Of a DNA stretch of 64,000 nucleotides, positions 3,118 to 61,567 are shown one piece after another. Every line of letters starts with the position of its first letter. Position 1 is the first letter of the stretch. Position numbers and translations under genes: made by a program. The stretch covers positions 124,001 to 188,000 of the forward strand of contig NZ_PYAS01000006.1 of the NCBI RefSeq assembly GCF_003014695.1, read 5' to 3'. This stretch comes from Dyadobacter jiangsuensis (GTDB taxonomy: Bacteria; Bacteroidota; Bacteroidia; Cytophagales; Spirosomataceae). A model generated the notes under the pieces. It worked only from the letters and a program-made list of their open reading frames with translations. It was not told where the DNA came from and made no database searches.

Positions 3118-6100
3118 ATGAATGAATCCCCTTTTCGAAAAGTTTTGAAACGTTTCAGGATCGCCGGTGTGACGGCCCTGGCATGTTGCAGTCTGATGGC
3201 TACGGCCCAGACAGTGACGCCGGAAAAGCGCGTGCTGGTGTTCTCGAAAACCGCCGGGTTCCGGCACTCTTCTATCCCCGCTGGTAAAACTGCCATCTTG
3301 AAACTAGGTAAAGAAACTGGCTTCGCGGTAGATACTACCGAAAATGCAAGCGTGTTTACCAACAAAAACCTGCAAAAATACAGCGCCGTTATATTCCTAA
3401 ACACCACCGGTAATGTACTGAACGACAAGCAGCAGGATGCATTTGAGCGCTACATCCAGGCGGGCGGCGGTTATGTGGGCATCCACGCCGCAACCGACAC
3501 CGAATATGACTGGCAATGGTACAACAAGCTCGCCGGCGCGCAATTCCTGAGCCACCCGGGTAACCCCAACGTGCAAGAAGGCGAAGCGTTTGTTGTAAGT
3601 GACCAACACCCGTCGATGGATGGCTTTCCAAAAAAATGGAAGATCAAGGACGAATTTTACGACTTCAAAAACTTCAATGAGAAGGTAAATGTCCTGGTAA
3701 AAATCGATGAGAAGACTTACAAGGATGGCAAAATGGGCGATAACCATCCGATGTCGTGGTACCACGAGTTCGACGGAGGCCGCGCATTCTATACCAACTT
3801 CGGGCATGAAGATGCCACTTATATCAATCCCGTTTTTGTAAAACACCTGACCGGGGGCCTCAACTGGGCAATGGCATCGAAACTGGATTATGCCAAATCC
3901 CGTCCCGAAGAAAACCGTTTCACTAAAAAAGTACTCGCTTCCAAACTCGACGAGCCGACAGAACTGGTCGTTCTCGATGACCAGCGTGTGCTTTTCACCG
4001 AAAGAAAGGGAAAAGTGAAGCTTTACAATCCTAAAACCGGCAAGATTAAACTCGTTGGTGAAGTACCCGTTTATACCAAGCAGGAATATGGGTTAATGGG
4101 CCTGAATATCGACCCGAACTTCAAAACCAACAAACTGATTTACATGTACTATTCGCCGCCATCGACGGAGGCGGATACTGCCCAGCATTTGTCGAGGTTT
4201 AAATACGACGATGTGAAAGACACGGTGCTACTTAGCACAGAAGAAGTAATGCTCACTGTGCCCGTGAAGCGCACTGACTGCTGCCATACCGGTGGTTCCA
4301 TTGCCTGGGATGCGAAAGGGAACCTCTACCTCTCCACCGGAGACGATGTAAACCCTTTCCAATCCAGCGGATACGGCCCTATCGATGAGCGTCCGGGACG
4401 TGAGGGCTGGGACGGTCAGCACACCTCGTCCAACACCAATTCACTGAGAGGAAAAGTATTGCGCATTAAGCCTCGTTACGGCGATCGCCGTGCAAATATG
4501 CCAGGTGGTACCAACCTGTACGATATTCCTGAAGGCAACTTGTTCCCTCCCGGAACGGATAAGACCCGCCCTGAGATCTACGTGATGGGTACCCGTAACC
4601 CTTACCGCATTTCAGTGGATCAGCACACAGGCTATTTGTACTGGGGTGATGTAGGTCCGGATGCTTCAAATGACGATCCGAAACGTGGCCCAAGAGGATA
4701 CGACGAGGTCAACCAGGCCAGAAAGGCGGGCTATTTCGGCTATCCGCTCTTTATCGGTAACAACAGGCCATACATCGACTACAACTTTGCCGACAGCACT
4801 TCCGGCAAACCGTTCGATCCGTTGAAACCGATCAATAACTCACCGCACAACACCGGTTTACAGGAGCTACCGCCTGCTCAGCCTGCATTCATTTACTATC
4901 CGTATGCCGATTCGCCCGAATTCGGCGCAATTGTCGGCAAGGGCGGACGGAATGCCATGGCCGGTCCGGTATATTATGCTGCCGATTTCCAGGATAGCAA
5001 GGTTAAATTCCCTTCCTATTACAATGGCAAATTCTTCGCATATGACTGGATCCGCGATTACATCAATATCGTGACGATGAACGAAAAAGGTGATCTGCTA
5101 AGCATCGAGCGCTTCATGCCCAGCACTAAGTTCAGCCACCCGATCGACATGCAATTTGCCAAAGACGGCTCATTGTACACATTGGAATACGGCCCCAACT
5201 GGTTCGCGCAAAACGACGAGGCCAGCCTCTCGCACGTTACCTTTAATGCGGGTAATCGCGTGCCTGTGGCTGTTGCGAGCGCTACCAACACAACAGGCGC
5301 GACTCCTTTGAAAGTCAATTTCTCTTCCAAAGGCTCACTGGATTATGACGGCGACCCGATCAAGTACGAATGGTCATTTGGCAAAGGTCTGCCAAAAAGT
5401 ACAATGGCTAACCCAAGCTTTACGTACGCTAAACCAGGTGAATATACCGCCACTTTGAAAGTGACCGACAATGCCGGCAACTCCAACACCTCGGACGTGA
5501 TCGTACGCGTGGGTAATGCGATTCCGAAAGTGAATGTGGCCATCAAAGGCAACAAGACTTTCTACTGGAACGACAAGCCTGTGAACTACGAAGTTTCCGT
5601 TTCGGATAAGGAAGATGGAAGCCTCGCGGATAAAAAGATCCCCGAAGATGAGGTCACGTTGACCATCAACTACCTCGAAGGTTTTGATAAAACGCAACTC
5701 GCACAAGGTCATCAGGCTAACACCGGCTTCGAAACCGGCAAGCGTATGATCGAGCTGAGCGATTGCAAAGCCTGCCATTCGATTGATAAAAAGTCGATTG
5801 GCCCCGCTTATCGCGAGGTTGCGAAGAAATATGCCAGCGAGCGAAACTCCTTGAAAACGCTGACCGACAAAGTACTCAAAGGCGGAAGCGGTGTTTGGGG
5901 TGAGCAGGCAATGCCCGGCCACCCGCAGCACAAGCCTGAGGAAATCGAGGAAATGGTGAAGTATATCCTGGACCTTAATAACCAAAAAGCTGTCGCCAAA
6001 AAGCCGTTGAAGAGCTCTTATGTAACCGAAGCCAAGAAAAAGCAGGGGTCATATATCTTCACTGCCAGCTACACCGACAAAGGAAACGGCAACATGGGCC

Positions 6101-6525
6101 CATTAACCGGCTCTAAAACCATAGCGCTGCGCCCTTCGACGGTAATGGCCAACATGGCGGACACCACCAAAAATACCTTCAAATACAAGGGTGATAATGG
6201 CAACGAAATGGTGATCGGGATGAAAGATGGCGGCTTCATCGCATTTGACGACATCGACCTCAGCGAGATTTCCAAACTGGCTGTTGCCGTAGGAAGCAAA
6301 TCCGGGCAATCTGCTGGAGGAACCCTGGAAGTCCGCCTTGATGGTGTGGCCGGAGCGAAAATTGGTGAAGGCAAAGTGGAAAAATCTGAAACGATCAATA
6401 TCCCTGTAAAAGCGCCAGCCGATGGCAAGTTGCACAAGGTTTATTTTGTATTTAAAAATGCAGAAGCCGGCAACAAGCCATTGTTCTCGATTGAATCCGT
6501 CCAGTTCGAGAATGCCGCGTTGTAA
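3118..6525 (+). CDS. Exported multidomain protein: ThuA, glucose/sorbosone dehydrogenase, PKD, cytochrome c, carbohydrate-binding-like end
   Basis: 1135 residues. An N-terminal signal peptide (basic start, hydrophobic core, ATAQ cleavage region near residue 31) sends it across the inner membrane. Domains in order: ThuA-like (about 36-255, starting KRVLVFSKTAGFRHSSI), six-bladed propeller of the glucose/sorbosone dehydrogenase type (about 267-710, with FTERKGKVKLYNP and VMGTRNPYRISVD), PKD (about 711-801), mono-haem cytochrome c with CKACH at 883-887 and a C-terminal beta-rich domain (about 966-1135) resembling CBM6-type modules. The propeller family uses PQQ to oxidise sugars, so the haem domain could accept the electrons in cis. 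The downstream terminator and the preceding sugar genes support a role in extracytoplasmic sugar oxidation. Substrate unknown. Confidence 0.9.
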   Translation: MNESPFRKVLKRFRIAGVTALACCSLMATAQTVTPEKRVLVFSKTAGFRHSSIPAGKTAILKLGKETGFAVDTTENASVFTNKNLQKYSAVIFLNTTGNVLNDKQQDAFERYIQAGGGYVGIHAATDTEYDWQWYNKLAGAQFLSHPGNPNVQEGEAFVVSDQHPSMDGFPKKWKIKDEFYDFKNFNEKVNVLVKIDEKTYKDGKMGDNHPMSWYHEFDGGRAFYTNFGHEDATYINPVFVKHLTGGLNWAMASKLDYAKSRPEENRFTKKVLASKLDEPTELVVLDDQRVLFTERKGKVKLYNPKTGKIKLVGEVPVYTKQEYGLMGLNIDPNFKTNKLIYMYYSPPSTEADTAQHLSRFKYDDVKDTVLLSTEEVMLTVPVKRTDCCHTGGSIAWDAKGNLYLSTGDDVNPFQSSGYGPIDERPGREGWDGQHTSSNTNSLRGKVLRIKPRYGDRRANMPGGTNLYDIPEGNLFPPGTDKTRPEIYVMGTRNPYRISVDQHTGYLYWGDVGPDASNDDPKRGPRGYDEVNQARKAGYFGYPLFIGNNRPYIDYNFADSTSGKPFDPLKPINNSPHNTGLQELPPAQPAFIYYPYADSPEFGAIVGKGGRNAMAGPVYYAADFQDSKVKFPSYYNGKFFAYDWIRDYINIVTMNEKGDLLSIERFMPSTKFSHPIDMQFAKDGSLYTLEYGPNWFAQNDEASLSHVTFNAGNRVPVAVASATNTTGATPLKVNFSSKGSLDYDGDPIKYEWSFGKGLPKSTMANPSFTYAKPGEYTATLKVTDNAGNSNTSDVIVRVGNAIPKVNVAIKGNKTFYWNDKPVNYEVSVSDKEDGSLADKKIPEDEVTLTINYLEGFDKTQLAQGHQANTGFETGKRMIELSDCKACHSIDKKSIGPAYREVAKKYASERNSLKTLTDKVLKGGSGVWGEQAMPGHPQHKPEEIEEMVKYILDLNNQKAVAKKPLKSSYVTEAKKKQGSYIFTASYTDKGNGNMGPLTGSKTIALRPSTVMANMADTTKNTFKYKGDNGNEMVIGMKDGGFIAFDDIDLSEISKLAVAVGSKSGQSAGGTLEVRLDGVAGAKIGEGKVEKSETINIPVKAPADGKLHKVYFVFKNAEAGNKPLFSIESVQFENAAL

Positions 6526-6548
6526 AATTGCTTTCCGGTAATAATGTC

Positions 6549-6584
6549 AAAAGCGGGCTTCTTTGCAGAGGCCCGCTTTTGCTT
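6549..6584. terminator. Bidirectional terminator between convergent genes
   Basis: AAAAGCGGGC (6549-6558) and GCCCGCTTTT (6571-6580) form a perfect 10-bp stem with a 12-base loop. The flanking A and T runs let it work in both directions, for the dehydrogenase fusion on the plus strand and the fibre gene array on the minus strand. Confidence 0.85.
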
Positions 6585-6603
6585 TCTAGCAACTAAGGAT
6601 ACC

Positions 6604-8310
6604 TTACTTCTGAACCACCATTTTCTTCACACCGTTGCTCTTTCCATCCGTAACCAAATCATACAAAAAAACGCCGTTTTGAAAGTCTCCTGCCGAAATC
6701 GTCAGCTGTCCTTCTCCCCGCTCCTTCACCGGATAAGAATTTACCTTCGCACCATTTACAGCATACACATCGACTCTCGCCTCCTTAACCGATTGAGGAA
6801 CGAAGTATTTGATCGCCGAACTTTCGGAAAACCCGTTCGGTACATTTTGCTCAAGAACCACCCCATTCGCATTCGGCTCAATCCGTGCAGCGCTCCCATT
6901 CAAAGGTTTCGCGGTATTCGAAGCCACGATCCGCTCCAATAGTTCGAGCCGCTTTGATAATTCGACTACCTGCGCATTCGTTTCTTTCAATTCCGCGTCC
7001 TTTTGCTCAATGACTCGCTGCTGTTCTTTTACGGAATTGATCAGAATGTAAGTGACCGCATTCGCATCGTAATCCAGGTACTCGGTTTTTTTGCCCAACG
7101 AATCCTGATGCGTAAATGTACCAATCGTATAAGGCGCTATTTTCTGCATTTCCTGCGCGATGATACCTACGAACTTTTTATCGCCGGTTTCGATGCCCGC
7201 TTGGCCATTGTACTGAAACCAGACCGGTTTGATTTGTTTGAGCAGGTGAAGGCCGTCGGTAAAGTCGGTGATGTTCTTTTTGAGGCGACTGTCCGAGGCT
7301 ACGATCCAATCCGGCGATCCGGCCTTGGCTGCGGCATCGGTGCTGAGGTGGAGTTGGAAGGATGGAGCCGATACACCAATGCCGACATTGGCATTTTTAC
7401 CGAGGACGATGCTATTATTGGCTGTGACCTTTGCTTCTGAACCTATTGCGGTTGCATTTTCCAATGTCGCGTTTCCGGTAGCGCCATATCCGAGGTAGGT
7501 ATTCCGTTGCCCCGTCGTGTTATGATAACCGGCACCATAGCCGAGAAAAACATTCTGGTGGCCATTTGTATTGGAATAGCCTGATTTATTTCCCAGAAAG
7601 ACATTCCCCACACCGGTTTGGCTCGAATAGCCGGATTGGGAACCTAAAAACGTATTAAAAAAACCTTCCTTATTCGAGTAGCCGGCTTCATTGCCCAAAA
7701 AAGAGTTTTCGTTTCCTTTGTTAAGTCGTCCACTCATTGCTCCCAAAAATACATTCAAATTGCCATCACTATCGTAACCCGACATACGTCCTATGATGCA
7801 GTTGTCATTACCTGACCCCTCTTTGAACGACGTATTCCCCATAACGACATTATTCGATGCGTCAAAAGAATACTGTCCAGCCCAGTTACCAATATAGACA
7901 TTCCCTTGCCCAACGCCGTTTGAGGTACCGGCATATGCCCCGATGTAGGTATTATATGACATGCCAGCTGAGCCACCCGCAGCGACACCCAGATACGTAT
8001 TGTTGACACCAGTGAGATGATTAACACCCGCCTGAGAACCTACAAAAGTATTTCCGGCCCCTGTACTAAATTGACCCGATCTGGAACCAACAAACGTGTT
8101 GTCATTGCCCCCAGTATTAGAGGTACCAGCCTCGTGCCCCAGCATCGTATTGTCGGCCCCAGTATTAATCTTTCCTGCATCAGTACCAAAGAATGCGTGT
8201 CTTGTTCCTACTGTTCCCGCCCCCATTCCATAATGTGTCTGCGCATTCACTTGCATTGTCACACACGCGCCCATCATCAGCGCTCCTGCCATTCTGTACC
8301 ATTCCTTCAT
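6604..8310 (-). CDS. Surface fibre protein 1: head repeats, S74 chaperone, coiled coil, T9SS sorting domain
   Basis: 568 residues from the ATG at 8310; a TTG two codons upstream is less likely. A signal peptide ends near VNAQTHYG. About 14 repeats of roughly 23 residues follow, of the type NTFLGSQSGYSS, a pattern seen in trimeric adhesin (YadA-like) heads. The linker NVGIGVSAPSFQLHLSTDAA leads into a peptidase S74 / intramolecular chaperone domain beginning at Ser339-Asp340-x-Arg-Leu-Lys344. A predicted coiled coil follows, then a C-terminal type A T9SS sorting domain starting LEQNVPNGFSE. It should be exported by Sec, carried by T9SS and displayed or released as a trimeric fibre. It is the last gene of four tandem paralogues and closest to the second copy. 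Confidence 0.88.
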   Translation of the reverse strand: MKEWYRMAGALMMGACVTMQVNAQTHYGMGAGTVGTRHAFFGTDAGKINTGADNTMLGHEAGTSNTGGNDNTFVGSRSGQFSTGAGNTFVGSQAGVNHLTGVNNTYLGVAAGGSAGMSYNTYIGAYAGTSNGVGQGNVYIGNWAGQYSFDASNNVVMGNTSFKEGSGNDNCIIGRMSGYDSDGNLNVFLGAMSGRLNKGNENSFLGNEAGYSNKEGFFNTFLGSQSGYSSQTGVGNVFLGNKSGYSNTNGHQNVFLGYGAGYHNTTGQRNTYLGYGATGNATLENATAIGSEAKVTANNSIVLGKNANVGIGVSAPSFQLHLSTDAAAKAGSPDWIVASDSRLKKNITDFTDGLHLLKQIKPVWFQYNGQAGIETGDKKFVGIIAQEMQKIAPYTIGTFTHQDSLGKKTEYLDYDANAVTYILINSVKEQQRVIEQKDAELKETNAQVVELSKRLELLERIVASNTAKPLNGSAARIEPNANGVVLEQNVPNGFSESSAIKYFVPQSVKEARVDVYAVNGAKVNSYPVKERGEGQLTISAGDFQNGVFLYDLVTDGKSNGVKKMVVQK

Positions 8311-8469
8311 AATCAATACCTTGTTTAGATGAGTGAGGATTTACCTCGATTGATTCTGCAACAGGTACAAAACTGATATGCAGGAATCGAAATTTGCGAA
8401 TCGAATGAAGCAGTGGGAGATCGAGGTTATTTGTCGGACAGGCATTTTTTTCAACCGCTTGCAAAAGCA

Positions 8470-8500
8470 AATGCGGGCACTCTTTGGGAACACCCGCATT
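8470..8500 (-). terminator. Probable terminator downstream of fibre gene 2
   Basis: AATGCGGG (8470-8477) pairs with CCCGCATT (8493-8500). Read on the minus strand the stem is followed by TGCTTTTGC. It lies 35 bases after the stop codon of the second fibre gene. The T tract is short, so termination may be partial. Confidence 0.5.
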
Positions 8501-8534
8501 ACTAAGTCGCCTGCCTTGGAACACATTTCCAGTT

Positions 8535-10235
8535 CTACTTCTCAACCACCATTTTCCTAACACCATTGCTTTTCCCATCAGTCACGAGGTCGTAAAGAAA
8601 AACACCGTTCTCAAAGTCGGAAGCAGAGATCGTCAACTTTCCTTCCCCTCTCTCATTCACAGAATAGGAATTCACCTTGGTACCATTCGCTGAATACACA
8701 TTGACAGTTGCCTCCTTCACAGATTTTGGAATAAAGTATTTGATGGCCGAACTTCCAGAAAAGCCATTCGGAGCATTTTGTTCGAGAACCACTCCGTCCT
8801 CCTTTTGTTCCATACAGGCCGTGCTACCGGTCAAGGATTTTACGGCGTTATCTGCAATGATTCGTTCCAACTGTTCCAACCGTTTTGACAGTTCCGAGAC
8901 CTGCTCATTCACCACTTTTAGCTCTGCATCCTTTTGCTCGACAACTTCCTTCACAGCATTGATAAGAATATAAGTAACCGCGTTCGCATCATAACCCAGG
9001 TATTCTGTCTTATTGCCTAATGAATCCTGATGCGTGAATGCGCCAATCGTGTAAGGCGCTATTTTCTGCATTTCCTGCGCGATGATACCTACGAACTTTT
9101 TATCGCCGGTTTCGATGCCCGCTTTGCCGTTGTACTGAAACCAAACGGGATGGATTTGTTTGAGCAGATTGAGGCCGTCGGTAAAGTTGGTGACGTTCTT
9201 TTTGAGGCGGTGGTCGGAGGCCACTATCCAGTTGGGCGAGCCGGCCTTGGCTGCGGCGTCGGTGCTGAGATGGAGTTGAAAGGATGGTGCGGAGGTGCCG
9301 ATGCCGACATTGGCTTTATGACCCAGTACAATGCTGTTGCTCGCAGTGACTTTTGCTTCTGAACCGATTGCCGTCGCATTCTCCACCACCGGGTTGCCAG
9401 TGGCACCGTAGCCCAAATAGGTATTCCGCTGGCCGATTGTGTTATGAAATCCCGCACCATATCCGAGGAAAACATTCTGGTGGCCGTTTGTGTTGGAATA
9501 GCCGGATTTGTTTCCCAAAAAAACATTTCCGACACCAGTTTGGCTCGAATAGCCCGACTCAGATCCTACAAAAGTATTGGAGAAACCCTCCTTATTGTTA
9601 TACCCGGAGTTTTCTCCCAAAAAAGCGTTGTGATGGCCGGTTGTGTTGTTTACGCCCGTTTCTGAACCCACAAATGTGTTTAGCTCGCCGATACCGGCTA
9701 AGTAGCCTGCCCGGTACCCCAAGAAAGTGTTACTGGATCCCGCATTACTATGGCCTGCTTCCGAGCCCAGTAACACATTATGGTCGCCAATTGCCATCCG
9801 ACCTGCGTGATATCCAATGGAGCAATTGCCGAGGCCCGTCTTGCCGAAGTATTGGGCTTGATGACCAATGGCAACGTTTCCTCCTCCGTCCTTATTTAGT
9901 AATCCGGCGTCCGCCCCGATATACGTGTTCATATTTCCGGAAACATTTTCCAAACCAGCTCCGTCGCCGATAAAAACATTGGAATTCCCGTCAATGGTTT
10001 TGTATCCCGCGAAACTGCCGACGAAGGTATTGGCTGCGCCATCTACATTGCTGAAACCAGACTCGTGTCCCAGGAATGAATTGTTACTGCCTAAGTTTAC
10101 CATTCCTGCGTTTGTCCCAAAAAACGCATGTGCAGCACCTTGCGTGCCGGCGCCCATTCCGTAGTGCGTTTGTGCATCTACCTGCGTAGCGCTGAGAATT
10201 CCTATCGCCAACGCTAGTTTGTAACATTTGTCCAT
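8535..10235 (-). CDS. Surface fibre protein 2: head repeats, S74 chaperone, coiled coil, T9SS sorting domain
   Basis: 566 residues. The signal peptide ends near VDAQTHYG and is followed by about 14 head repeats of the NTFVGSESGYSS kind. The S74 domain starts at Ser340-Asp341-His-Arg-Leu-Lys345. The coiled coil after it is a few residues shorter than in copy 1 (AVKEVVEQKDAEL, lacking the QQR segment). The C-terminus has the T9SS type A domain starting LEQNAPNGFSG. It shares long near-identical stretches with copy 1, including a 73-base identical run in the S74 region, so the two are a recent duplication or are being homogenised. Only 28 bases separate it from the upstream third copy, so these two are probably co-transcribed. 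Confidence 0.88.
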   Translation of the reverse strand: MDKCYKLALAIGILSATQVDAQTHYGMGAGTQGAAHAFFGTNAGMVNLGSNNSFLGHESGFSNVDGAANTFVGSFAGYKTIDGNSNVFIGDGAGLENVSGNMNTYIGADAGLLNKDGGGNVAIGHQAQYFGKTGLGNCSIGYHAGRMAIGDHNVLLGSEAGHSNAGSSNTFLGYRAGYLAGIGELNTFVGSETGVNNTTGHHNAFLGENSGYNNKEGFSNTFVGSESGYSSQTGVGNVFLGNKSGYSNTNGHQNVFLGYGAGFHNTIGQRNTYLGYGATGNPVVENATAIGSEAKVTASNSIVLGHKANVGIGTSAPSFQLHLSTDAAAKAGSPNWIVASDHRLKKNVTNFTDGLNLLKQIHPVWFQYNGKAGIETGDKKFVGIIAQEMQKIAPYTIGAFTHQDSLGNKTEYLGYDANAVTYILINAVKEVVEQKDAELKVVNEQVSELSKRLEQLERIIADNAVKSLTGSTACMEQKEDGVVLEQNAPNGFSGSSAIKYFIPKSVKEATVNVYSANGTKVNSYSVNERGEGKLTISASDFENGVFLYDLVTDGKSNGVRKMVVEK

Positions 10236-10263
10236 AATAGTGTTGTGTTTAAGTTGAGTGGGG

Positions 10264-11958
10264 TCATTCGATTAGCATCTTCTTCCCCCCAGTGCTCTTG
10301 CCATCGACCACCAGTTCATATACTAAAACACCGCATTCCAAATCACTTGCAGAAAGGACCACTTCCCCGTTTCCGCGCCCTGCAATAACCCGCGCATGGA
10401 TTTTTGCGCCCCCGGCATTATACACATTAAGCACCGCCATCTTTGCGGATTCAGGAATATGGTACTTAATGGATGTGTTCCGGGAAAAGCCGTTAGGTGC
10501 ATTCTGTTCGAGGTAAGGGGTGTCGGCGTTTTGTTCTGTTTTTTGAAAATCTGCCGCTGATGCAGAACGGCTGTGTTCCAGCGCCTCTAAGCGTTCCAAA
10601 AGGCCCCGCTGGCTCTTTTCCAGTGCTGCAATTCTCGCTTCCTTCCCCTCAATCACTCGTTGCTGCTCTTTTACCGCATTGATCAGAATATAAGTCACAG
10701 CATTAGCGTCATAATCCAGGTATTCGGTTTCATTGCCTAACGAATCCTGATGTATAAAAGAACCGATGGTATAAGGTACTATCTTCTGCATCTCCTGCGC
10801 GATAACTCCCACAAACTTCCTATCACCGGTTTCAATACCCGCCTGACCGTTGTATTGAAACCAGACGGGGCGGATCTTTTTGAGCACGTCGAGACCATCG
10901 GTGAAGTTGGTGACGTTCTTTTTGAGGCGACAGTCGGAAGCGACGATCCAGTCGGGCGAGCCGGCTTTTGCCGCGGCATCTGTACTGAGGTGGAGTTGGA
11001 ATGTTGGAGCTGAAACGCCGATACCCACATTGGCTTTACGGCCCAGTACCAGGCTGTTGCTGGCAGTAACTTTTGCGGAGGCTCCAAGGGCTGTTGCATT
11101 AACCAGATTCATGCTTCCGCCTGCTTCATGGCCTAGGTAGGTATTCATTTGCCCGCCTACATTCCATTCCCCGGCATGGTAGCCTACGAAAACATTCTGT
11201 CCAGAAGCATTGTTATAACCGGCTTTGGCACCTATGAAGACATTCTCGATTCCATTCAAATTAAAAAAACCGGACTTCGATCCGACATACGTGTTCGACT
11301 GCGCGATTGAACCATGATATCCCGCATTGTCGCCCAAATAGGTATTCTCATTACCCACCGTGTTGCTGAACCCCGCATAATTGCCAGCGAACACGTTGAA
11401 ATTCCCGGCATTTTGATAACCGGACGAAAACCCGATTGCTACATTGTCGCTGCCCGTGTTACTCTCCCCAGCATTGCCTCCTAGGAAGGAATTATAATTT
11501 CCACCCGTGCCTTGAAAATATGCCTGAAATCCGACCGCACAGTTACCATTACCTGTCATATTCCCTGCTCCTGATTGAAAACCCAGATATGTATTGTTAA
11601 AACCGCCCACATTACTCAGGCCCGCATCCTTACCTATAAATGTATTTTGAGACCCGGTACTATTGGCGTAACCCGCCTGGGAACCGAAAAACGCATTGTC
11701 GATTCCGGTAAGATTGCCTGTCCCGGACTTGAAACCCACAAAGCTGTTTCCATTTCCTGTTGTATTACCGGCTCCACTCTCCTGCCCGACAAATGTATTG
11801 AACGGCCCTGTACTCACCTTCCCCGCATTCGCACCGAAATGCGAATGGAATTGCCCCTGCATTCCAGCGCCTACCCCGAAATGCGTCTGCGCCAGAGCGC
11901 ACTGCGACACGCAACAGCCCACAACCGCCAGAGCGGTTCTCTTGTAATTTTTGAACAT
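10264..11958 (-). CDS. Surface fibre protein 3: head repeats, S74 chaperone, coiled coil, T9SS sorting domain
   Basis: 564 residues. The signal peptide ends near CALAQTHFG. The head repeats (about 14) follow the same plan but differ in sequence from copies 1 and 2. The S74 domain begins at Ser341-Asp342-Cys-Arg-Leu-Lys346, so the residue after Ser-Asp is Cys here, His in copy 2 and Ser in copies 1 and 4. The coiled coil is more hydrophilic (KEARIAALEKSQRGLLERLEAL). The T9SS sorting domain starts LEQNAPNGFSRNTS and ends in KKMLIE. A near-perfect 42-base palindrome lies just upstream of the start codon and may influence expression. Confidence 0.88.
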   Translation of the reverse strand: MFKNYKRTALAVVGCCVSQCALAQTHFGVGAGMQGQFHSHFGANAGKVSTGPFNTFVGQESGAGNTTGNGNSFVGFKSGTGNLTGIDNAFFGSQAGYANSTGSQNTFIGKDAGLSNVGGFNNTYLGFQSGAGNMTGNGNCAVGFQAYFQGTGGNYNSFLGGNAGESNTGSDNVAIGFSSGYQNAGNFNVFAGNYAGFSNTVGNENTYLGDNAGYHGSIAQSNTYVGSKSGFFNLNGIENVFIGAKAGYNNASGQNVFVGYHAGEWNVGGQMNTYLGHEAGGSMNLVNATALGASAKVTASNSLVLGRKANVGIGVSAPTFQLHLSTDAAAKAGSPDWIVASDCRLKKNVTNFTDGLDVLKKIRPVWFQYNGQAGIETGDRKFVGVIAQEMQKIVPYTIGSFIHQDSLGNETEYLDYDANAVTYILINAVKEQQRVIEGKEARIAALEKSQRGLLERLEALEHSRSASAADFQKTEQNADTPYLEQNAPNGFSRNTSIKYHIPESAKMAVLNVYNAGGAKIHARVIAGRGNGEVVLSASDLECGVLVYELVVDGKSTGGKKMLIE

Positions 11959-11980
11959 AACACGATTATTTAGAGTGGAA

Positions 11981-12022
11981 ATTTGTACCCATCACAAGCG
12001 CTCGCTTGTAATGGGTACAAAT
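11981..12022. repeat. Near-perfect 42-base palindrome upstream of fibre gene 3
   Basis: ATTTGTACCCATCACAAGCG (11981-12000) and CGCTTGTAATGGGTACAAAT (12003-12022) are inverted copies with one mismatch and only a CT between them. The element starts 22 bases before the ATG of fibre gene 3 and about 75 bases after the stop of fibre gene 4. No T run follows on either side, so a simple terminator is not the best explanation. An operator, a cruciform or an RNA leader hairpin is possible. Confidence 0.8.
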
Positions 12023-12095
12023 GTGAGCCGCAATGGACATGTTCATCCAAAGCATTGTGCTAACGACCAGACCGCCTTTTTTACCGGCCAATTGG

Positions 12096-13514
12096 CTACT
12101 CTATTACCATCTTCTTCGCCCCAAAGCTCTTGCCATCCATGATCAGATCATAGACATGCACTCCGCTCCGATATTTATCTGCCGAAAGGACCAATTCACC
12201 GGCTCCTCGCTCCGATATCGGATGCGAACTAACCTTTAACCCCGCAATAGTATAGACGTCGATCACCGCCGTTTTTACGGATTGTGGAATAAAATATTTA
12301 ATGGAGGTCTTATTGGAGAATCCATTGGGCACGTTTTGCTCCAAAACTCCCCCATCCGGTTGCTTGTTAAAAGTTCCCGGAGAAGCGCTCATTAACCGCT
12401 CCAATTTTTCCAGCCGACTTTCCAAGGCCTGGATCTTTGCCTCTTTATCTTCGATAATGCGTTGCTGCTCCTTCACGGAATTGATCAGTATATAGGTAAC
12501 CGCATTCGCGTCGTAATCCAGATAGTCGGTTTTGTTGCCTAATGAATCCTGGTGCGTGAAGGTACCCACCGTATAAGGCGCGATCTTCTGCATTTCCTGC
12601 GCGATGATGCCGACGAACTTCTTGTCGCCTGTTTCAATACCAGCTTTGCCATTGTACTGGAACCAGACGGGTTTGATTTGTTTTAAAACGTCAAGTCCTT
12701 CTTTGAATTCGGATATATTTCTCTTCAGTCTAGAATCCGACAATACCGCCCAAGTCGAAGATCCTGCCTTCCCCGCGTTGTGTTTGCTTAGCTGTAATTG
12801 GTAAAACGGAGCAGAATAGCCGATACCGACATTGGCATTATTTCCTAAAACCAGGTAATGACTGCCCGTAACCAGTGCGGCTGCCCCGACGGCGGTTGCA
12901 TTAATCAAACCGGCATTACCTCCCGAAGCGTAACCCAAATAGGTATTCTTTTCCCCGTTGGTATTACTTAGGCCAGCCCCGTGACCAAGGAAGGTATTAA
13001 AGTTTCCTGTTTCATTACTGGTTCCGGTCTTAGCTCCCATAAAGACGTTGTAGCTTCCGGCTTCATTCTTCAATCCGCTTTCATTTCCCAAAAAACAATT
13101 TTGCGTGCCTTTTGTTTTCTGACCGACCCAACGCCCAATTCCCACATTAAGACTACCAGAAGTGAACATTCCTGCCTGATAGCCCATATAAACGTTACCT
13201 TCTCCGTTGACATGATTCTGTCCAGCTGATCCTCCAATAAAGGTATTCGCAATACTATTCTCAGCCTTTTCTCCGCTAAAACTCCCCAAATAAACATTCC
13301 CAAAACCATCAATACTTTTTGTTCCCGATCCATAGCCGATATAAGTATTATACAACCCATTAACTCCATTGGATTTACCGGCATATGTACCAATGAATAC
13401 GTGACCTCCCCCAACTGTACCCACTCCCTCTCCATAATGTGTCTGAGCATTTGCATAAGGCAAGTGAAAGGCTCCTGCGAACAACGCAATTACCATTTTG
13501 TAACTGTTTTTCAT
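12096..13514 (-). CDS. Surface fibre protein 4 (shorter head): head repeats, S74 chaperone, coiled coil, T9SS sorting domain
   Basis: 472 residues, about 95 fewer than the other three, all lost from the head, which has about 10 repeats. The signal peptide ends near ANAQTHYG. The S74 domain starts at Ser259-Asp260-Ser-Arg-Leu-Lys264. The coiled coil (KEAKIQALESRLEKLERLM) is short, and the T9SS domain starts LEQNVPNGFSNKTS. It is the first gene of the minus-strand array and the most divergent copy (the S74 entry reads STWAVLSD instead of SPDWIVASD). The 226-base AT-rich gap upstream must hold the array's promoter, but I see no exact TAnnTTTG box there. Confidence 0.87.
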   Translation of the reverse strand: MKNSYKMVIALFAGAFHLPYANAQTHYGEGVGTVGGGHVFIGTYAGKSNGVNGLYNTYIGYGSGTKSIDGFGNVYLGSFSGEKAENSIANTFIGGSAGQNHVNGEGNVYMGYQAGMFTSGSLNVGIGRWVGQKTKGTQNCFLGNESGLKNEAGSYNVFMGAKTGTSNETGNFNTFLGHGAGLSNTNGEKNTYLGYASGGNAGLINATAVGAAALVTGSHYLVLGNNANVGIGYSAPFYQLQLSKHNAGKAGSSTWAVLSDSRLKRNISEFKEGLDVLKQIKPVWFQYNGKAGIETGDKKFVGIIAQEMQKIAPYTVGTFTHQDSLGNKTDYLDYDANAVTYILINSVKEQQRIIEDKEAKIQALESRLEKLERLMSASPGTFNKQPDGGVLEQNVPNGFSNKTSIKYFIPQSVKTAVIDVYTIAGLKVSSHPISERGAGELVLSADKYRSGVHVYDLIMDGKSFGAKKMVIE

Positions 13515-13740
13515 AAGCGTGCATGTTTAAATTGAATGGAAATGATTTTCAAATCGTTTTCGACAGCACAAGTTTGAAAGGAAAGCTTTGAATTTAGAAT
13601 TGGTTGTGCAAGCGGAAGAAGGGCGTTACTTGGCGGATTTAGCGCTTTTTTTGCTTTGAATTAATTACAAAGCACCCACGATAAATTGACAAAATACTTT
13701 GGTTTGAGTAATAATTATATGGAAGCCAACAAAATCCTTT
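13515..13740. other. AT-rich intergenic gap upstream of the fibre array
   Basis: No ORF or RNA gene is recognisable. The gap lies between the start of fibre gene 4 and the stop of the DUF2400 gene, both on the minus strand, and probably contains the array promoter and leader. No exact -7 box, terminator hairpin or repeat was found by eye. Confidence 0.4.
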
Positions 13741-14541
13741 TCAACTCGCAAACCCCTCAATCCCCAACCCAAACAAAGCAAAATCATACTTCACAGGATC
13801 ATTCGGGTCGAGCAGTCGCAGCGATGCAGTAAGCTCGGTAGCAGTCTGCCAGTCGGTAACAGGTCGTTTGATCAGGCCCAGGATACGCGCTACGCGGTCG
13901 ACGTGAACGTCGCACGGGCACACGAGTTGGGAAGGACGGATGGTGTTCCAGATGCCAAAGTCGACGCCATGGTCGTCCTTGCGGACCATCCAGCGCAGAA
14001 ACATATTCAAGCGCTTGCACGAGGACTTGCGTGCAGGCGTAGCAATGTGCTTACGCGTCCGTGCAGGGAAATTTTCTGATTTGGTGAAGAAGTCGTGGAA
14101 GCCTGTGAGTGCACTTTCGATGGTAATATCGCCCGGCGTCATATGGCTGCTGAATGCAAATTCCAGCGAGTCGTGGACTTTGTAGTATTCCTGAAAGAAA
14201 TGCAGGAAATACAGCGTATCAGTAGCGTTGAAAGTACGGTGTTTGAAATGCAGGAATGGTTTCAGATCGCTATCGTGATGGTTACGCACAAAGTCGTAGG
14301 GCGCATTATCCATTAACGCAGCCAGTTCCAGGCATTTATTGATAATGGTTTTGCGCTGCCCCCAGGCAAGTACCGCGGCCCAGAAGCCCATTATTTCAAT
14401 ATCCTGCTTCACCGAAAACCGGTGCGGAATACTGATCGGGTCAAAAGGGATGAAATCCGGCTGATTATATTGCGCCACCTTCGCATCGAGCAACTCGGCC
14501 ACAAAGGATGGCGGGTAGGCAGTTTGGCTAACGTCGGGCAT
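13741..14541 (-). CDS. TIGR02757 / DUF2400 family protein
   Basis: 266 residues from the ATG at 14541. A longer start at 14571 would add ten residues that do not look native. The sequence (FDPISIPHRF near the N-terminus, then IMGFWAAVLAWGQRKTI, LNMFLRWMVRKDDHGVDFGIW and LVCPCDVHVDRVAR) matches the conserved DUF2400 family of Bacteroidota and other phyla. The biochemical role is not established. The helical pattern and the PCDVHVDRVAR segment resemble helix-hairpin-helix DNA glycosylases, which is inference only. The start overlaps the end of the upstream small membrane protein gene by 14 bases, so the two are translationally coupled in an operon with the LysM and DUF4905 genes. Confidence 0.85.
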   Translation of the reverse strand: MPDVSQTAYPPSFVAELLDAKVAQYNQPDFIPFDPISIPHRFSVKQDIEIMGFWAAVLAWGQRKTIINKCLELAALMDNAPYDFVRNHHDSDLKPFLHFKHRTFNATDTLYFLHFFQEYYKVHDSLEFAFSSHMTPGDITIESALTGFHDFFTKSENFPARTRKHIATPARKSSCKRLNMFLRWMVRKDDHGVDFGIWNTIRPSQLVCPCDVHVDRVARILGLIKRPVTDWQTATELTASLRLLDPNDPVKYDFALFGLGIEGFAS

Positions 14542-59818: not shown

Positions 59819-59902
59819 CCACAGGATAACCGCCACAATTTTGCCTTTGGAGAAGTATATGGAAAAAGAAGCAATGAACGTTGCTTTCAAAAAACCGTGT
59901 CC

Positions 59903-61567
59903 ATGAAAAAAACTTTACTGCTTACCGTATTTACATTCGTTTTAGCCCAGGCTACCGCTTTCGCACAGAGTTATCCGAGATATCTGGTCCTGTTTAAGCA
60001 AAAATCCGAGGGAACTTATTCGCTTGATAAGCCTACCGAATTCCTGTCGCAGCGTGCTGTCGAGCGTCGTAAAAAACAAAATATCGCCATCACCGAAAAC
60101 GACTTGCCGGTAGAGCAAATTTATCTTTCCCTGATACGCCAGACTGGCGGAAAAATCATCTACCCGACCCGCTGGTTCAATGGGGCATTGATTGAAGCCT
60201 CCGACGCTCAGCTGGCGCAAATCAAGGCCATGCCATTTTACAAGGGCATCGAGCTAAACCTGCCGGTGGCCAATATTACTTCTAAATCACCCGGCATTGC
60301 GCGCACCGCAGCTACGCATCAAAAATTAGGCACAACCGCCGATATCGATTACGGCAAAATGAATACGCAGCTCGCGCTCATGGAAGTGGCCGATATGCAC
60401 AAAAAAGGCTTCCAGGGCGAAGGTATGCTCATTGCCATTCTCGATAATGGTTTTGCCAAAGGCGATGAAGTCCCCTATTTCAAACAGGTGCGCGATGAAA
60501 AACGCATTATCGACACCCACGATTTCGTGGCCCGCGACGGCAATATTTACAACGATGGCTTTCATGGTCTGAATGTGATGTCGACGATCGCCGGTTATCT
60601 GCCCGGCACATTGGTAGGTACCGCATTCAAAGCCTCATTTGCATTATATGTAACAGAAAACAATGCCGGTGAATCACCCTATGAGGAAATAACCTGGCTC
60701 ATGGCCGCCGAACGTGCCGATAGCCTCGGCGCGGACGTGATCAACTCTTCTCTTGGCTACACCACGTTCGACGACGAATTCGACTCGCCCGCCTACAACC
60801 ATACCTACAAGGACATGGACGGCAAAACGACAATCGTGAGCCGCGCAGCGCGTTACGCCACGCGTAAGGGCATTCTGGTGGTAAATTCGGCGGGTAATGA
60901 CGGAAACAACAGCTGGCACTATATCGGCGCGCCGGCCGATGTGGATTCGGTACTGACCGTCGGGGCGACGAACACCGATCGTAGTTACGCGTCGTTGAGT
61001 TCGGTGGGGCCTAACTCCGCCGGGGTGCAGAAACCCGATGTATCAGCGGTAGGCGCGGGAGCCGTCATAGGTGACCTCACCGGCGGCGCTTCCAGCGGTT
61101 ACGGCACTTCATTTTCAGCTCCGCAAATCGCCGGTGTTGCCGCTATTCTCTGGCAGGCATTTCCGAATCTGACAGCGCAGCAGATTATTTATGTACTAAA
61201 AAAATCAGGGCACCTGGCGGCGACACCCGACAATATGCTAGGCTATGGCGTACCTAATCTGATTAAAGCACAGGAAATCGCTCAAAATGAATTTTCCCCA
61301 CTGGGTACCGAGGGAGAGCTCCTGAGCTCCGTCATTCTTTCGCCCAATCCGGCGCAGGATGAAGTGACGCTCACCATTCCGCAAACCCTGATTGGTAAAA
61401 CAGCGCATGTAAGCGTATATGCAGCAAGCGGGGCAACCATGCATACGGCCTCAACCCGCCTTACGGGAAAGCACACCATCGCCACAGGCTATCTGGGATC
61501 CGGCCTCTACCTCGTCCGGCTCAAAGTGGACAACCAGGAAAGAACGTTGAAGTTTATAAAGCGCTAG
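59903..61567 (+). CDS. S8 family serine peptidase with T9SS sorting domain
   Basis: 554 residues from the ATG at 59903; a GTG two codons upstream is possible. Signal peptide ending near ATAFAQ, a propeptide region, then the subtilisin domain with the triad Asp181 (AILDNGF), His221 (DGFHGLNV) and Ser403 (GYGTSFSAP). The oxyanion Asn is in VVNSAGNDGNN. The C-terminal 85 residues (VILSPNPAQDEVTLTI, ending GLYLVRLKVDNQERTLKFIKR, split) are a type A T9SS sorting domain. It should be secreted and either released or bound at the surface. Its 3' end overlaps the convergent NUDIX gene by 14 bases. Confidence 0.92.
   Translation: MKKTLLLTVFTFVLAQATAFAQSYPRYLVLFKQKSEGTYSLDKPTEFLSQRAVERRKKQNIAITENDLPVEQIYLSLIRQTGGKIIYPTRWFNGALIEASDAQLAQIKAMPFYKGIELNLPVANITSKSPGIARTAATHQKLGTTADIDYGKMNTQLALMEVADMHKKGFQGEGMLIAILDNGFAKGDEVPYFKQVRDEKRIIDTHDFVARDGNIYNDGFHGLNVMSTIAGYLPGTLVGTAFKASFALYVTENNAGESPYEEITWLMAAERADSLGADVINSSLGYTTFDDEFDSPAYNHTYKDMDGKTTIVSRAARYATRKGILVVNSAGNDGNNSWHYIGAPADVDSVLTVGATNTDRSYASLSSVGPNSAGVQKPDVSAVGAGAVIGDLTGGASSGYGTSFSAPQIAGVAAILWQAFPNLTAQQIIYVLKKSGHLAATPDNMLGYGVPNLIKAQEIAQNEFSPLGTEGELLSSVILSPNPAQDEVTLTIPQTLIGKTAHVSVYAASGATMHTASTRLTGKHTIATGYLGSGLYLVRLKVDNQERTLKFIKR

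Follow-up and report, generated by a model that had tools for sequence, protein, structure and literature searches.

We identified, in a 64,000-nucleotide window of the Dyadobacter jiangsuensis genome (contig NZ_PYAS01000006.1, positions 124,001 to 188,000), a tandem array of four genes whose products, named W1 to W4, may be exported, self-releasing trimeric adhesins. We give this reading a probability of about one half, on the combined weight of sequence, predicted structure and analogy with characterised proteins. The four consecutive minus-strand genes claimed by a preliminary description of this DNA are all present as open reading frames (ORFs) at window positions 6604-8316, 8535-10235, 10264-11958 and 12096-13514. 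The plan which that description ascribed to all of them holds in outline, each protein having a signal-peptide-like start, YadA-like repeats, an S74 domain, a heptad-like helix and a C-terminal domain (CTD) attributable to the type IX secretion system (T9SS), although the repeat length had to be corrected and the CTD stays under the Pfam cut-off.

Modules of the array proteins

The N-termini of all four proteins, read by eye, carry a signal-peptide-like segment ending ..A↓QTH(Y/F)G, and the head repeats begin within about 10-30 residues of it. These follow the consensus N-x-[FY]-[LIV]-G-x-x-[AS]-G-x-x-N-x-x-G-x-x with a period of 16-17 residues, not the 23 or so first described. By hand count W1 to W4 contain 13, 13, 13 and 8 units of 16-18 residues, followed by about two canonical YadA-type units of 14-15 residues. 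The proteins had also been said to differ mainly in repeat number and sequence; their sequences do differ, but W1, W2 and W3 all have 13 units. The Pfam YadA_head profile matches three of the four, over the last units only, and exceeds its cut-off in one (25.6 against 25 bits), while fold comparison of the predicted W4 model treats residues 27-231 as a single YadA-like head. The YadA barrel anchor is absent from the Pfam matches at E ≤ 1 in all four proteins.

The S74 domain (PF13884) scores 46.7-51.3 bits against a cut-off of 22 in all four proteins. It is accompanied by a helical segment, with heptad-like a positions V-I-L-V-L-V in W1 and a helix at residues 336-376 in the AlphaFold monomer model of W4, after which each protein has a C-terminal domain of about 82 residues. 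The W4 model predicts an all-beta fold, a beta-sandwich, for this last domain, and in the fold comparison the head resembles YadA and CbpF, the S74 domain the ICA domain of MyRF, and the C-terminal domain the CTDs of PorU and mirolase. Its identification as a T9SS CTD is supported by the predicted fold and by homologues, though it lies below the Pfam cut-off. The 8.27 Mb genome contains T9SS genes above cut-offs (SprA 2312 bits, PorU 1243, GldM 405, PorV 384) and, with 150 of 166 candidates scored, at least 134 CTD matches at E ≤ 1e-3, at least 122 of them above cut-off. PorU is described as the factor that frees or anchors type IX cargo (PMC10202324).

Conservation of the cleavage dyad

Autoproteolysis by S74 domains is described as depending on a catalytic dyad in which Lys follows Ser by five residues (MyRF S587/K592, endoNF S911/K916; PMC8326128), and the Bdellovibrio fibre Bd3182 is reported to cut itself at S782 (PMC10769870). 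The Ser-x4-Lys dyad is intact in all four window proteins (SDSRLK, SDHRLK, SDCRLK and SDSRLK in W1 to W4) and is kept in 16/16 S74 proteins of the genome, some of them very divergent. It is likewise present in the 25 S74 genes of 15 syntenic Dyadobacter loci, in 123 of 124 close homologues (a count that includes W1 to W4 themselves and their database copies) and in 43/43 S74 proteins from six sister genomes. This last sample comprises 32 regions chosen, not at random, among the matches listed for 6 of 47 other genomes, all rich in S74 genes, with window-type genes set aside. Across the wider Bacteroidota 62 of 68 CTD-fused ORFs have the dyad, compared with 27/27 S74 ORFs lacking a CTD, the six exceptions including two short gene pieces (L069, L074) and one that may be misplaced (L042). 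Genes at the compared loci are longest-ORF calls rather than annotation, with N-rich ORFs dropped and one Bacteroidota and three viral S74 ORFs without a stop left out. In W1 to W4 the predicted cut site falls between the head and the CTD, so that cleavage would separate the head from the only visible export or anchor domain.

Proposed export and cleavage, and competing explanations

Under the favoured reading each gene would yield a fibre precursor that a Sec signal peptide directs to the periplasm and a C-terminal type A CTD takes across the outer membrane by way of the T9SS translocon. Three chains would be joined by the S74 domain and its coiled coil, and the trimer would cut each chain just before its serine (S339, S340, S341 and S259 in W1 to W4), freeing a trimeric YadA-like head of about 235-318 residues per chain from the chaperone-coil-CTD piece. 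Cleavage would be completed at or after export. The head trimer would then be outside the cell, unattached or loosely retained, and serve as a secreted adhesin or a fibre of the matrix, while the CTD piece would go to PorU or be shed. The locus would vary its heads by tandem duplication and recombination while keeping the C-terminal module. The modules, the intact dyad, the T9SS genes, synteny, copy-number change and head divergence are directly supported here by the sequences and the model; trimerisation, cleavage, T9SS export, the order of export and cleavage, release and adhesion we infer. Export followed by self-release is favoured because the dyad is conserved, the cut lies between head and CTD, and the parts stand in the same order in MyRF, which also shares the Ser-Lys spacing. 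MyRF is reported to free its N-terminal part while the ICA domain remains on the membrane, but it is a eukaryotic transcription factor held in the endoplasmic reticulum membrane by a transmembrane helix (PMC8326128).

Several observations weigh against export and self-release. The CTD passes the Pfam cut-off in none of the four proteins (at best 21.2 against 27 bits, or 18.1 against 23 in a second scan). In the fold comparison CTDs score little better than unrelated Ig-like domains, and the W4 model, that of a monomer, is middling in S74 (pLDDT about 62-79) and poor at the cleavage region (<50). The cleavage serine is lost in four or five CTD-bearing relatives (L040, L048, L068, P0105, perhaps L042), which indicates that cleavage is not needed in every lineage. 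A periplasmic cut would strand the head unless the pieces stay together, and Bd3182 is reported to cleave itself when made in E. coli (PMC10769870), so that cleavage in the array proteins may come too early for cutting to follow export.

This timing problem would be removed if the trimer cut itself in the periplasm and the head, clamped non-covalently to the chaperone-coil-CTD piece, were exported and held at the surface together with it. The behaviour of Bd3182 in E. coli fits such early cleavage, as does the description of T9SS substrates as folding in the periplasm before transport (PMC10202324). The stable clamp is a postulate, however, and the ICA domain of endoNF is reported to be released after cleavage (PMC8326128), and we consider joint export of this kind unlikely, if still a serious alternative.

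The four proteins could also stay uncleaved as trimeric surface fibres with the head outward, the S74 domain serving only as trimer clamp or neck, the coil as stalk, and PorU processing being followed by attachment of the C-terminal end to the surface, in effect a T9SS analogue of a trimeric autotransporter adhesin. Their order of parts is that of a type Vc adhesin (head, neck, coiled coil, C-terminal outer-membrane part), the predicted head fold resembles YadA and CbpF, T9SS type A cargo can be surface-anchored (PMC10202324), and a few CTD-bearing relatives do lack the serine. An intact dyad in W1 to W4 and in nearly all relatives nevertheless makes an uncleaved fibre doubtful. The surface fibres of the preliminary description can accordingly be kept as regards the adhesin-like fibre plan, while surface anchoring is questionable with an intact dyad between head and CTD. 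The serine-less relatives (L040:9860-11230, L048:5689-6810, L068:2004-3125 and P0105) are natural candidates for uncleaved, anchored fibres, and anchored versions may exist among them.

Should export with self-release be correct, proteins would have a different release route, in which the cargo brings along, between its payload and the export tag, a protease that trimer formation switches on. Such cargo would lend itself to asking whether assembled trimers can pass the type IX pore. Secretion in a large phylum would, moreover, have taken over the assembly logic of phage fibres, at a locus whose heads vary through duplication and recombination.

Conservation and diversification of the locus

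We found 1539 homologues at E ≤ 1e-3 among 7990 scored candidates, the closest named ones being Dyadobacter proteins annotated as 'tail fiber domain-containing protein'. Fibre genes adjoin the window's DUF2400, LysM and cytidylyltransferase genes in 15 of 17 loci taken from named Dyadobacter records (16 genomes, some of them genome bins), and the ThuA-GSDH gene lies on the array's other side in 14 of those 15, locus L024 ending before it; in L031 and L033 the fibre genes are elsewhere. The number of homologues and the shared position in 15/17 loci argue that the array is not a product of chance. On this sequence comparison the locus is chromosomal and fixed in position, and a plasmid search returned 10 distant records. 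In a genus sample of 48 genomes, that of D. jiangsuensis included, W3 is matched at E ≤ 1e-60 in 22, with 1-6 matches per genome, and S74 in general occurs in 40.

Beyond the genus, CTD-fused loci came from Hymenobacter, Rhodocytophaga, Pollutibacter, Saprospiraceae and Lewinella as well as Dyadobacter, and from a Kapaibacterium genome bin. The C-terminal fragment of W4 is matched at E ≤ 1e-12 in at least 19 of 392 genomes of a phylum sample, reaching its last seven residues in 14 of them by hand count (own genome included), and these figures are lower bounds, with at most seven candidates scored per genome. The proposal of an expanded Bacteroidota family, its members combining the head of an adhesin with a chaperone of phage-fibre type and a signal for T9SS, is supported, and the genome has T9SS genes.

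The 15 syntenic loci hold from one to six S74 genes each, that of D. fermentans (L020) having two. Flank proteins there are 68-99% identical to those of the window (94-98% in D. fermentans, L020), and, compared with the best window paralogue, C-terminal fragments of the fibre proteins are 62-92% and heads 45-90% identical, with 8-23 repeat motifs per gene. One D. fermentans gene (L020:12190-13905) is a mosaic in which both ends are W1-like and about 600 bases of the head are W2-like (82-92% against 41-65%), a comparison that is informative for W1 and W2 only, the alignments with W3 and W4 having run off the end. It points to head exchange within the array and constitutes one clear case rather than a survey. 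As judged from these sequences the heads are the variable part, and recombination and duplication shape the array.

Two irregular copies were also observed. At L019:12092-13546 a gene from a tandem array of six stops directly behind its coiled coil and lacks a CTD, none being found in the other two frames, and an array-type match in a sister genome (G043:C1:1527599-1528849) has one in-frame TAA and is possibly a decayed copy.

Relationship to phage fibres

The block of head and S74 domain is common to phage fibres and spikes (endoNF and its relatives), W3 matching 78 phage records and the array proteins matching PHROG tail-fibre families. This resemblance could indicate a tail fibre, of a phage or of a contractile system, belonging to a prophage or a domesticated tail. 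The best 15 of the 78 phage matches, however, lie within W3 residues 15-450, the CTD starting near 483, and in 80 viral-contig loci no best match extends past W4 residue 392, where the CTD begins. A CTD is found in 0/89 viral S74 ORFs with a stop, although this contrast between viral and cellular genes is biased and partly built in, the query alignment having contained the CTD. By a simple rule, applied to relatives, a signal-peptide-like N-terminus is present in 1 of the 76 viral S74 ORFs whose start is known, compared with 60 of 67 CTD-fused Bacteroidota ORFs, and the array proteins have a putative CTD and signal peptide. No phage genes were found among nine neighbouring or nearby genes scanned, and the array keeps its place in 15/17 named Dyadobacter loci. 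We regard a tail fibre as highly improbable, and a phage origin of the locus was rejected on its fixed position, the non-phage character of the neighbours scanned and the putative CTD and signal peptide.

S74 genes with separate sorting domains

The other 12 S74 genes of the genome all lack a CTD, and 10 of them share a same-strand cluster with a gene encoding a CTD protein of its own; the ORF scan found nine, and the tenth is at L103, where the partner of 231 residues scores a weak 14.8 bits but has a typical YPNP start. Of eight CTD partners tested, seven pass the Por_Secre_tail cut-off, one barely. In the sister-genome regions a CTD gene lies directly downstream of 14/43 S74 genes as against 7/184 other genes (Fisher p 5e-7, the tests treating related genes as independent). 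A relaxed count gives 20/43 by adding six partners of 231-232 residues with a CTD judged by eye, the background not being relaxed. At other Bacteroidota loci 7 of 28 CTD-less S74 genes have a CTD neighbour as against 23/720, two of the seven neighbours being the next S74-CTD fusion (L019, L041) and five remaining without them.

Fusion in some families and adjacency in others suggest that S74 fibres and type IX secretion are functionally linked, and this wider connection, drawn from non-random samples, is best treated as a lead. Taken further, S74 autoproteolysis and type IX secretion might constitute one general fibre-export system of Bacteroidota, in which the fused form has a built-in, PorU-independent release switch for trimeric cargo and, in the split form, CTD-less S74 fibres are carried or docked in trans by the CTD protein of the cluster. 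We hold this generalisation to be speculative and rather improbable; its split form, if true, would provide a type IX route for cargo without a CTD of its own.

Within these clusters L101:2689-3945 encodes an S74 protein that has YadA-head repeats and, in place of the usual coiled-coil end, a C-terminus resembling a transmembrane segment with RRR after it. Many CTD-less S74 proteins (L096-L100, L103, L104 and others, sister genomes too) end in ..SVSR, ..TISK or ..SVAK, which may be a signal or chance.

Comparison with known systems

The array proteins partly resemble several characterised systems. In type Vc adhesins the canonical YadA head unit is 14 residues long. The array proteins share a YadA-like head with YadA and CbpF, but their units are mostly of 16-17 residues, an S74 autoprotease is inserted, and a T9SS CTD replaces the barrel anchor. 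With the S74 subgroup of the mosaic adhesive trimer (MAT) fibres of Bdellovibrio (Bd3182) they share a multigene repertoire, a C-terminal S74 autoprotease domain and, as predicted for the array proteins, secretion as a bacterial fibre (PMC10769870). A profile of the 123-sequence family matches the Bd3182 tip chain 8ojn among PDB sequences (E 0.0054), the alignment covering about 31 columns up to the cleavage site, while phmmer of W3 alone against the PDB sequences gave no match. In MATs the signal peptide is described as being followed by a conserved domain of about 130 aa, thought to be cell-side, and the fibre as having a variable C-terminal tip with S74 at the end, and the excerpted text of that paper names no secretion system for them (PMC10769870). 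In the array proteins, by contrast, the signal peptide leads straight into the head repeats, variation is concentrated at the N-terminal side, and S74 is followed by a T9SS CTD; a domain of about 130 aa is not seen between signal peptide and repeats in W1 to W4, a distinction drawn without an aligned MAT N-terminal sequence. From their sequences, the array proteins lack a defining feature of type Vc adhesins (barrel anchor) and one of MATs (N-terminal domain).

As T9SS type A cargo they have a putative signal peptide and CTD, in a genome with T9SS genes, and differ in a predicted self-cleaving trimerisation domain before the CTD, for which no parallel was found among such cargo in open-access full text. 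The same body of open-access literature yielded no paper joining S74 with type IX secretion, and the preliminary description likewise knew of no characterised system of this architecture; a paper on contractile-system fibres mentions S74 and Bacteroidota and, in its excerpted text, not T9SS (PMC12923769). The modules are each known and their fusion is common in sequence databases, and the combination is one for which no study was found.

Coordinates and surroundings of the array

The W1 ORF opens with a TTG at 8316; the ATG at 8310 is preferred as the likely true start. Sigma-70-like promoters number 7 compared with 10.1 in shuffled sequence, and terminator-like sites 8 compared with 7.4; neither being above shuffles, we claim no operon map. 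An Rfam search of 6000-14000 gave no match.

Table 1 Window coordinates of the fibre genes and their parts, and locus coordinates of S74/CTD gene clusters in the same genome
Feature	Position	Strand	Basis
W1, fibre gene 1, 568 aa	6604..8310	-	ORF; PF13884 49.7 bits; YadA_head 25.6 bits
W1 putative signal peptide, residues 1-23	8242..8310	-	by eye, hydrophobic stretch ending ..NA↓QTHYG
W1 YadA-like head, residues 24-310	7381..8241	-	13 units of 16-17 residues and shorter last units
W1 predicted cleavage serine S339	7294..7296	-	SDSRLK; Lys at +5
W1 S74 domain and coiled coil, residues 339-486	6853..7296	-	
W1 putative T9SS CTD, residues 487-568	6607..6852	-	not above Pfam cut-off
W2, fibre gene 2, 566 aa	8535..10235	-	ORF; PF13884
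W2 putative signal peptide, residues 1-21	10173..10235	-	by eye
W2 head, residues 22-311	9303..10172	-	13 units
W2 predicted cleavage serine S340	9216..9218	-	SDHRLK
W2 S74 domain and coiled coil, residues 340-484	8784..9218	-	
W2 putative T9SS CTD, residues 485-566	8538..8783	-	PF18962 21.2 bits, cut-off 27; 25.2 bits in genome search
W3, fibre gene 3, 564 aa	10264..11958	-	ORF; PF13884
W3 putative signal peptide, residues 1-23	11890..11958	-	by eye
W3 head, residues 24-312	11023..11889	-	13 units
W3 predicted cleavage serine S341	10936..10938	-	SDCRLK
W3 S74 domain and coiled coil, residues 341-482	10513..10938	-	
W3 putative T9SS CTD, residues 483-564	10267..10512	-	not above Pfam cut-off
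W4, fibre gene 4, 472 aa	12096..13514	-	ORF; PF13884; AlphaFold model
W4 putative signal peptide, residues 1-23	13446..13514	-	by eye; helix 5-16 in model
W4 head, residues 24-231	12822..13445	-	8 units of 16-17 residues and shorter last units
W4 predicted cleavage serine S259	12738..12740	-	SDSRLK
W4 S74 domain and coiled coil, residues 259-390	12345..12740	-	
W4 putative T9SS CTD, residues 391-472	12099..12344	-	
S74/CTD cluster	L096:4398-7218		
S74/CTD cluster	L097:2881-5576		
S74/CTD cluster	L098:2746-5813		
S74/CTD cluster	L099:2406-5251		
S74/CTD cluster	L100:2666-5739		
S74/CTD cluster	L101:2689-6660		
S74/CTD cluster	L102:3538-6865		
S74/CTD cluster	L103:1497-3823		

Between W4 and W3 lies a near-perfect inverted repeat (11981-12022) with 20-base arms 2 bases apart, of which no further copies were found in the window. 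The conserved neighbour of the array at 3118-6525 encodes a protein of 1135 residues with ThuA, glucose/sorbosone dehydrogenase, PKD, cytochrome c and CBM6 domains. Further along the window, 59897-61567 encodes a subtilisin-like protease (PF00082) whose T9SS CTD exceeds the cut-off (32.4 against 27 bits).

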